DNA from: an uncultured Balneola sp.
GTDB taxonomy: Bacteria; Bacteroidota; Rhodothermia; Balneolales; Balneolaceae
Length of the DNA stretch: 64,000 nt
NCBI GenBank assembly: GCA_913058495.1
Contig: CAJXQC010000007.1
Span: forward strand, 1-64,000
Direction of reading: 5' to 3'
The notes beneath the pieces are model-generated. The model saw only the letters and a program-made list of their open reading frames with translations, did not search any database and was not told where the DNA came from. This document shows, one piece after another, positions 54,602 through 55,661 of this stretch (the first letter of the stretch is position 1; each line of letters opens with the position of its first letter). The translations under genes were made by a program, and so were the position numbers.

Positions 54602-54698
54602 GAATTCTTGAATGAAGGATTAAGAATTATTCTAGTTCTATAAGCTAAGAGGTTTTATTTACCACTAATACACCAACACACAAAAGTAATGATTAAAG

Positions 54699-54731
54699 TT
54701 TTGTGCTTTTGAGTTTCTGTGGCATTTTTCC
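54699..54731. repeat. Left copy of a direct repeat bounding the REP-RAYT unit
   Basis: TTTTGTGCTTTTGAGTTTCT followed by GTGGCATTTTTCC. The copy at 55559-55592 differs at a few positions. The two bracket the palindromes and the transposase in the same orientation. Confidence 0.65.
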
Positions 54732-54739
54732 ATAAGATC

Positions 54740-54773
54740 TTTTAAGTCTTTAGCGAATAGCGGAGACTTAAAA
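54740..54773. repeat. Long REP palindrome, left flank of RAYT
   Basis: Arms TTTTAAGTCT and AGACTTAAAA enclose TTAGCGAATAGCGG. The whole core appears in reverse orientation at 55497-55532, on the other side of the transposase gene, with one mismatch across 'AAGTCTTTAGCGAATAGCGG'. AGATCT precedes it, as it follows the other copy. Confidence 0.85.
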
Positions 54774-54786
54774 GTAACAATAAATA

Positions 54787-54801
54787 GAAGTCTCTGACTT
54801 C
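54787..54801. repeat. Short REP palindrome, left flank of RAYT
   Basis: GAAGTC-tct-GACTTC. It shares the AAGTC/GACTT arms with the long palindrome 14 nt away and mirrors the short palindrome at 55436-55454. Confidence 0.75.
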
Positions 54802-54817
54802 CACTATCTCAATCTTA

Positions 54818-55368
54818 TTAAATCAATACTTCATCTATTCGAATCAGGCCTGTTTTATATGTATACCAACTTGCGCTGCTATAAGGATAATCAACTGCTT
54901 TTTTACAGAAACCTTCCTTCACCGGATTGTAATGGATGTATTCCATTTTTTATGGAAAAACTCATTGCTTGTAATTTCCATCGGTCGATTATCTTGTCTC
55001 CAGAATTGATATTTCTTATTGTTAGAATTCCTCTTTCCTGCTTCTCTAAACAACCACAACATCCAATTCCTTCGGCTTTCTTTTTTATTAAATTCAAGAT
55101 CTTTAAGAATGGCTGATGCTGTAAACTTTTTAAAGTCTCTGAGTGTATTAGAAAGGCTACAATCTTCTTTTGCACTTATTACTAAATGGATATGATTGGT
55201 CATTATGCACCAACCATGAATGTTTAATCCTTTTTCTTTTTGGCAATATTGTAAGCTTTCCACAACAATAGTTTTGTAGGCAGGTCTGGTAAATACATCA
55301 ATCCATTCTATTACCGCAAAAGTAATGAAATGAGCTTGTTGGTGATTATAAATTTTAAATCCTGCCAT
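54818..55368 (-). pseudogene. REP-associated tyrosine transposase (RAYT, Y1/HUH type), frameshifted
   Basis: The gene starts MAGFKIYNHQQAHFITFAV and carries the HUH motif as HIH in 'WCIMTNHIHLVIS', followed by the conserved 'KYQFWRQDNRPMEI'. The first frame ends early at 54919. Reading on after one added base in the A6 run (complement of 54946-54951) gives 'YIHYNPVKEGFCKKAVDYPYSSASWY', the standard RAYT C-terminus, ending at 54818. With that base the product is about 183 residues, normal for the family. RAYTs mobilise REP palindromes as single-strand DNA. Palindromes flank it on both sides. Programmed -1 slippage at the A run is an alternative to mutation. Confidence 0.88.
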
Positions 55369-55435
55369 ATACTGAATGAAAAAGCCTTCTACATTTTAAA
55401 TATACAAGGCTTATATAAATATTTAGTATTTGGTT

Positions 55436-55454
55436 AGCAAGTCACAGACTTGCT
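55436..55454. repeat. Short REP palindrome, right flank of RAYT
   Basis: AGCAAGTC-aca-GACTTGCT. It sits 67 nt upstream of the RAYT start, mirroring 54787-54801. Confidence 0.75.
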
Positions 55455-55496
55455 TTTTGTTCTAACCAGCTAGCTCTTCTGGCTTGTTCATTCCCG

Positions 55497-55532
55497 CTCT
55501 GAAGTCACCGCTATTCGCTAAAGACTTCAGAG
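55497..55532. repeat. Long REP palindrome, right flank of RAYT
   Basis: Arms CTCTGAAGTC and GACTTCAGAG enclose ACCGCTATTCGCTAAA, the reverse complement of the loop at 54750-54763 plus flanks. The rest of 55369-55661 holds a further small hairpin (TTCCGtagctccgctGCGGAA near 55598) and no gene. Confidence 0.85.
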
Positions 55533-55558
55533 ATCTTTTGGGGAAAGTAATAATTCAA

Positions 55559-55592
55559 TTTTTGTGGTTTTGAGCTTCAGTGGCATTTTTCC
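55559..55592. repeat. Right copy of the direct repeat bounding the REP-RAYT unit
   Basis: TTTTTGTGGTTTTGAGCTTC followed by AGTGGCATTTTTCC, the counterpart of 54699-54731 in the same orientation. Confidence 0.65.
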
Positions 55593-55661
55593 CTCTTTCC
55601 GTAGCTCCGCTGCGGAATGCTAATCTCAAGCTCTGCTTCCACACAAAACTAAATAATAAAA

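Follow-up and report, generated by a model that had tools for sequence, protein, structure and literature searches.

Insertion of a RAYT unit with inverted REP doublets and duplication of 49 bp of target DNA in an uncultured Balneola genome

A unit of 812 bp, consisting of a RAYT gene between two inverted REP doublets, has been inserted whole in the lineage of the uncultured Balneola genome analysed here, and 49 bp of the target were duplicated in the process; this is the simplest reading of the same site in three sister species, where the unit is absent and the target segment is found once. Related units in Bacteroidota behave alike, with duplications of 22–95 bp. Unit insertion, target duplication, conserved double-hairpin ends, and the dispersal of solo, paired and internally deleted derivatives are all shown by the comparisons below. 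That the unit is a transposable element, inserting as a whole and generating its long, variable target duplications by staggered nicking of two target strands, is considered likely (about 0.77), where the nicking is inferred and no transposition has been observed.

The window, meaning the whole stretch of 64,000 nt that was analysed, belongs to genome G000, and the inserted block (54732–55543) is intergenic, with a metallo-beta-lactamase-fold operon on one side and tamB on the other. The RAYT gene encodes a Y1 transposase and is located on the minus strand between hairpin doublets that are inverted relative to each other, with a direct repeat outside both. Reading outward from the gene, each side has a short AAGTC-GACTT hairpin, a long hairpin with a TAGCGAATAGCGG loop, and a copy of the direct repeat. 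On the left these are hairpin 2 (54787–54801) and hairpin 1 (54739–54774; CTTTTAAGTC, loop TTAGCGAATAGCGGA, GACTTAAAAG), both on the plus strand and supported by covariation and folding, then the left terminus of the unit with its ATAAGATC leader (54732–54739, plus strand), and the repeat copy of the original site (54683–54731, plus strand). On the right, hairpin 2 (GCAAGTC-TGT-GACTTGC, 55437–55453) and hairpin 1 (CTCTGAAGTC, loop TTAGCGAATAGCGGT, GACTTCAGAG; 55497–55532) are on the minus strand and supported by folding, and are followed by the right terminus (55533–55543), with a CCCCAAAAGAT leader read on the minus strand and its CCCC at 55540–55543, and by the other repeat copy (55544–55592, plus strand). 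The block is limited by CC(CC) at one end and GGGG at the other. The GATC located 5' of hairpin 1 is nearly invariant across all copies, and the CC/CCCC preceding the left GATC leader might be either target or element DNA. The 50-nt arms flanking the long palindromes are 84% complementary between the sides, with one mismatch in the inner AAGTC..GACTT part, and folded as single-stranded DNA the two doublets are far better than shuffled sequences (z -5.3 and -3.8). The initial annotation, made from the sequence alone, had described a transposase with mirrored short and long palindromes and outer direct repeats, and all of these parts are present; the opposite orientation of the long palindromes with a single mismatch holds for the inner part. 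Adjoining the right duplication is another palindrome, TTCCGTAGCTCCGCTGCGGAA, at 55597–55617. Similar palindromes flank, as inverted repeats, the second RAYT of the genome (GRSR type, G000:C3:161200-161709), and this palindrome therefore looks like a REP of that RAYT.

The metallo-beta-lactamase gene beside the unit is present in all eight genomes of the genus. In the sister species G001, G003 and G007, the intergenic region between this gene and tamB contains the 49-nt segment once and is free of REPs and RAYTs. When the G000 flanks are joined through one copy of the segment they match G007 from end to end and G003 almost entirely, with gaps only where the right-flank sequence differs. The two G000 copies are identical at 43 of 49 positions and have AAAGT, GAG and TTTTTCC in common, which are absent from the empty sites, while GAG and TTTTTCC are also missing from a paralogue of the segment on contig C32, indicating that both copies derive from one site in this lineage. 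With the unit missing and the segment single in three sister species, it follows that the unit was inserted whole and that the outer repeat is target DNA copied on insertion. As the two copies differ at 6 of 49 positions, the insertion is not recent. A 33-nt outer repeat had been claimed initially as part of a self-contained transposable unit. The 33 nt are part of the 49-nt repeat, and the self-contained unit is supported by the empty sites and by related units with defined ends at different sites, but the repeat does not belong to it: it is single-copy at the empty sites, and the repeats at other RAYT units are of different sequence and length.

The 49-nt segment is one member of a small family of dispersed repeats (TTTGTGCTTTTGTGTTTCCGTGGCA, with the partial inverted left arm TTTGCCACTAATACAC), also found at G000:C32:15311-15343 and in relatives. 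In G006, a lone left doublet with 97% identity to the left end of the window unit is located in the corresponding intergenic region (G006:C1:127888-127962), preceded by TTTGCC and followed by 1.1 kb of extra sequence, and G007, the nearest sister of G006, is empty there. Its origin in the same insertion event is unsupported, as G006 groups with the empty G007 and the junction differs. No flanking duplication was detectable at the four Balneolaceae RAYT units in G002, G004, G006 and G010. A search for empty-site flanks at nine other REP/RAYT sites in the genus mostly failed for lack of an ortholog on one of the sides, REPs being located at junctions that vary between strains.

Copies at different sites define the ends of the unit. 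Loci L119 and L124, from two Pedobacter species, have 713 bp in common at 97.8% identity and nothing outside; L148 and L161 in one Cyclobacterium genome have 774 bp in common, and L307 and L331, also within one genome, 709 bp, in both cases at different sites with unrelated flanks. The common part in L307/L331 and L119/L124 begins with the CC(CC) that precedes hairpin 1 and closes with the GGGG that follows the opposite hairpin. The right end of the window unit (CCCCAAAAGATC, minus strand) agrees with these ends; on the left, only CC is present.

RAYT loci of the same type were gathered from GTDB genomes, giving 150 loci with 153 RAYT genes, a few places being counted twice, and at many of them a hairpin with a TAGCGn(n)AGCG loop is combined with a second, short one to form the doublet. 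The two flanks of each were searched for direct repeats outside the inverted REPs, and at 11 of the approximately 150 loci non-REP direct repeats of 22–95 bp are located directly outside the REP pair: 22 bp in L338 (21/22 identical), 36 bp in L094 (34/36), 42 bp in L132 (39/42), 48 bp in L319 (39/48), 49 bp in the window (43/49) and in L121 (46/49), 79 bp in L323 (61/79) and L099 (75/79), 83 bp in L309 (65/83), and 95 bp in L347 and L117 (both 92/95). The repeat of L117 might itself be repetitive, judged by appearance only. Three further possible cases, L349 (72 bp), L113 (26 bp) and L061 (28 bp, another RAYT type), are outside the 11, and about 140 of the 150 units have no flanking duplication. 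Among 132 control flank pairs taken 700 bp farther out there were three hits, namely two RAYT or REP tandems and one weak 27-nt match, and the Fisher test of loci against control gives p = 0.001 with the control set to 0, or p = 0.006 with the 27-nt match counted as 1. REP arrays and tandem RAYTs were removed by rule and inspection after the hits had been seen, and since this exclusion was post hoc the evidence from gene ends outweighs the p-value.

In seven of the 11 duplications a neighbouring gene has its natural end in one copy, and the second copy is an orphan. The gene ends, read up to the stop codon, are VKS (L099), LLMGYISVVSLIAYF (L121), YGKIGS (L132), RNIVLKS (L309), KGNWKRIAI (L319) and LEKAGII (L338), and in L347 it is a gene start, MFSHLVSAATYGVNAFMVDVEV, of a gene which we take to be comM by its sequence. 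For L347, the left flank in the relative G094 leads through one copy into the comM gene without interruption. Such a pattern is not to be expected from chance repeats or from recombination between dispersed repeats. Empty sites for L099, L121 and L094 were sought in 400 Sphingobacteriaceae genomes, and every match was either distant or the locus itself. A hairpin in the target as attractant was dropped as an explanation, as it is strong only in L099 (z -4.1) and not in the other duplicated targets that were folded. L061 (G012:C5), a locus with a GRSR-type RAYT, has a perfect 28-nt direct repeat at 1299–1326 and 2402–2429 that takes in the likely start of a downstream gene; it suggests that long duplications may extend beyond subclass 2.6, discussed below, and was not counted because its left flank is itself repetitive. 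At L311 (G408:C77:95300-101900) at least three RAYT units, about 95% alike, are found in tandem.

The plan of the doublet, with a GATC guide, hairpin 1, a spacer of about 10 nt and hairpin 2, recurs in the window genome and its relatives. Compensatory changes are found in both hairpins when 18 copies are aligned, with 97.7% of the cells paired and eight pairs changed on both sides, a number reached by none of 500 shuffles. A covariance model of the doublet has matches in 13 of 35 genomes searched, with 3–13 doublets per genome within the genus and eight in G000, where the initial annotation had proposed to look for further copies. The doublets occur alone, as inverted pairs, and in miniature units with internal deletions. 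Inverted REP pairs of about 120–215 nt are found in G004, G005, G006 and G010, and direct repeats around RAYT-less REP pairs were looked for in Balneolaceae and none were found. The miniature unit L212 (G006:C14:54069-54253) retains the gene 5' end with 12 RAYT codons, the 3' end, and both sets of hairpins. L212, L220 (G007:C1:6290) and L206 (G003:C3) are miniature or truncated derivatives retaining the first RAYT codons, and among derivatives of this type some have other sequence in place of the gene. The initial annotation had also proposed a comparison with relatives lacking the unit, for which G001, G003 and G007 provide empty sites, and would have been refuted by a relative having the palindromes without a RAYT nearby. 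Such palindromes are present in G006 and G003, which is no refutation, as mobilisation of REPs is believed to occur in trans (PMC2817692, PMC6006769).

The inferred RAYT protein matches Pfam PF01797 (Y1_Tnp, IS200-like HuH domain) with an E-value of 7e-10, and H59-x-H61 of the HuH motif is invariant in the RAYT alignment. A one-base frameshift in a T6 run at 54946–54951, directly ahead of the motif with the catalytic tyrosine, makes the gene a pseudogene. Beyond the frameshift an intact C-terminus, KMEYIHYNPVKEGF...DEVLI (KMEYIHYNPVKEGFCKKAVDYPYSSASWYTYKTGLIRIDEVLI), is found in a different frame, and the gene thus extends over 54818–55368, of which 54919–55368 is the part of the ORF still intact. 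The tyrosine motif YIHYNP (YIH[QN]NP in the family) is present but out of frame by 1 nt; it is intact in the RAYTs of G002, G006 and G010. The gene is a member of the family by descent, a conclusion that stands, whereas activity of the window copy does not, and with a frameshifted RAYT the unit in the window is probably dead now. The frameshift rests on one assembly, and a sequencing error or slippage on the A6 run is not excluded. On the coding strand the position of the frameshift is a run of six A, CATAAAAAATGG, where a -1 slip would bring back the tyrosine motif, and expression by slippage is therefore conceivable. Four related RAYTs, intact or broken (G002, G004, G006 and G010), are 72–77% identical and have mirrored doublets of the same kind. 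The RAYT resembles TnpA-REP subclass 2.6 (group 5), a known REPtron type of Bacteroidota, by motif, phylum and the trait of atypical secondary structure only, without placement in a family tree.

The proposed mechanism is inferred. Because the doublets are inverted, each strand has one doublet with an outward 5' guide. The RAYT, a Y1 HuH enzyme, would recognise the doublet through this guide (GATC here), one doublet per strand, and would cut each of the two on its 5' side. Cutting by a HuH-Y1 enzyme leaves a 5'-phosphotyrosine and a 3'-OH. The two 5' ends of the unit would then be joined to the 3'-OH at nicks on opposite strands of the target, presumably tens of nucleotides apart with 3' overhangs, and fill-in of the overhangs by repair would give a direct duplication whose variable length equals the stagger. 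The polarity of the ends and the duplication fit this nicking model, although the enzymatic steps are inferred. A bolder reading, for which the arguments on either side are balanced, is that Bacteroidota RAYT units are autonomous transposons, in which a Y1 HuH enzyme acts on inverted hairpin-doublet ends and nicks the target strands 22–95 nt apart, and that the long variable duplications are able to restore disrupted gene ends. No description of such a mode of transposition was found for any HuH transposase.

For the duplication step the chief alternative, which remains possible, is a mishap at the replication fork, where the RAYT would insert single-stranded REP/RAYT DNA on one strand and template switching during repair would duplicate the flank. 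In its favour are the variability in duplication length, the lack of duplications at most units, and the action of the known IS200/IS605 relatives on one strand (PMC8266576). Against it, in genomes that are unrelated the duplications begin immediately next to the inverted unit at both ends, a pattern that random repair would not produce. Unlikely is an insertion by homologous recombination, in which a circle or linear fragment with the unit and one copy of the dispersed repeat recombined at a resident copy; the 49-nt segment does belong to a small dispersed family and the window copies are just 88% identical, but both copies have derived states missing from the C32 paralogue, and at other units the repeated sequence comes from the end of one host gene, an unexpected passenger on a circle. 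An immobile, domesticated REPtron beside the REPs it mobilises, with an unrelated dispersed repeat found twice by chance, has in its favour that known REPtrons with the same inverted-REP layout are described as not transposing as units (PMC6006769, PMC8266576) and that a diverged relative of the segment exists at C32, but is very unlikely, being contradicted by the single-copy empty sites unless these are precise excisions in three lineages, by the derived states common to both window copies, by sequence-unrelated repeats at the corresponding position of other units, seven of them gene ends, and by units at different sites with unrelated flanks.

Transposition of the whole unit with duplication of the target remains the preferred reading, and it departs from how these genes have been described. 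RAYTs flanked by two inverted REPs were described in 2010 (PMC2817692), and RAYTs have been treated as immobile, domesticated transposases (PMC8049555, PMC8266576) that do not move as units (PMC6006769, PMC8266576). No report of a RAYT with a target site duplication was found in a full-text literature search, which did not cover subscription papers. Like IS200/IS605 elements (IS608, ISDra2), the unit has a Y1 HuH transposase, terminal hairpins and a short guide 5' of the hairpin. IS200/IS605 elements are without terminal inverted repeats and larger target duplications (PMC2817692), whereas the ends here are inverted instead of being on the same strand and the target is duplicated by tens of bp, 49 bp in the window. 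The inverted ends argue against single-strand recognition of same-strand ends of the IS200/IS605 type, in the absence of biochemical data. The terminal-inverted-repeat-associated Y1 transposases (TIRYT, mostly subclass 2.1; PMC6006769) also have inverted ends with a GGGG motif, but are described without typical hairpin REPs, and a long target duplication is not mentioned in the text consulted. RAYT-less inverted REP pairs as in REPINs/BIMEs (Bertels and Rainey 2011, PMC3116915) are found here too, in G005 and G010, but each REP is a two-hairpin doublet, the copies number about 3–13 in a genome, and among them are RAYT units with internal deletions, which are not REP pairs.

How REPs spread is still an open question, and a clade of visibly inserting RAYT units with mapped ends makes it testable, supplying substrates, end sequences and an expected product in the form of a duplication of tens of base pairs. 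Insertion of units accounts for the arrival of RAYT genes at new sites, and insertion into gene ends may be tolerated for the reason that the duplication gives back the lost codons. The closest known systems are the REPtrons of TnpA-REP subclass 2.6 or RAYT group 5 (PMC6006769; Bertels et al. 2017 as cited there), described in 2018 from Bacteroidetes with atypical secondary structures (Quentin et al. 2018). The unit is like these in its phylum, in the NH[LIV]H HuH motif, in the YIH.NP tyrosine motif (in a shifted frame in the window), and in being flanked on either side by atypical secondary structures that recur elsewhere in the genome. As in that subclass, the RAYT lies between inverted REPs and has cognate REPs at other places in the genome, but unlike an immobile, domesticated REPtron the block has inserted as a unit, in view of the empty sites and the copies at different places. 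It differs from the described REPtrons in having been shown to insert as one piece with a 49-bp target duplication, and in that its ends are defined here, with CCCC...GGGG as the borders and a doublet made up of a short hairpin and a long one whose loop is TAGCGn(n)AGCG. The kind of element is hence already known, and what is well supported and appears to be new is the mobility of the unit together with its long target duplications of variable length.
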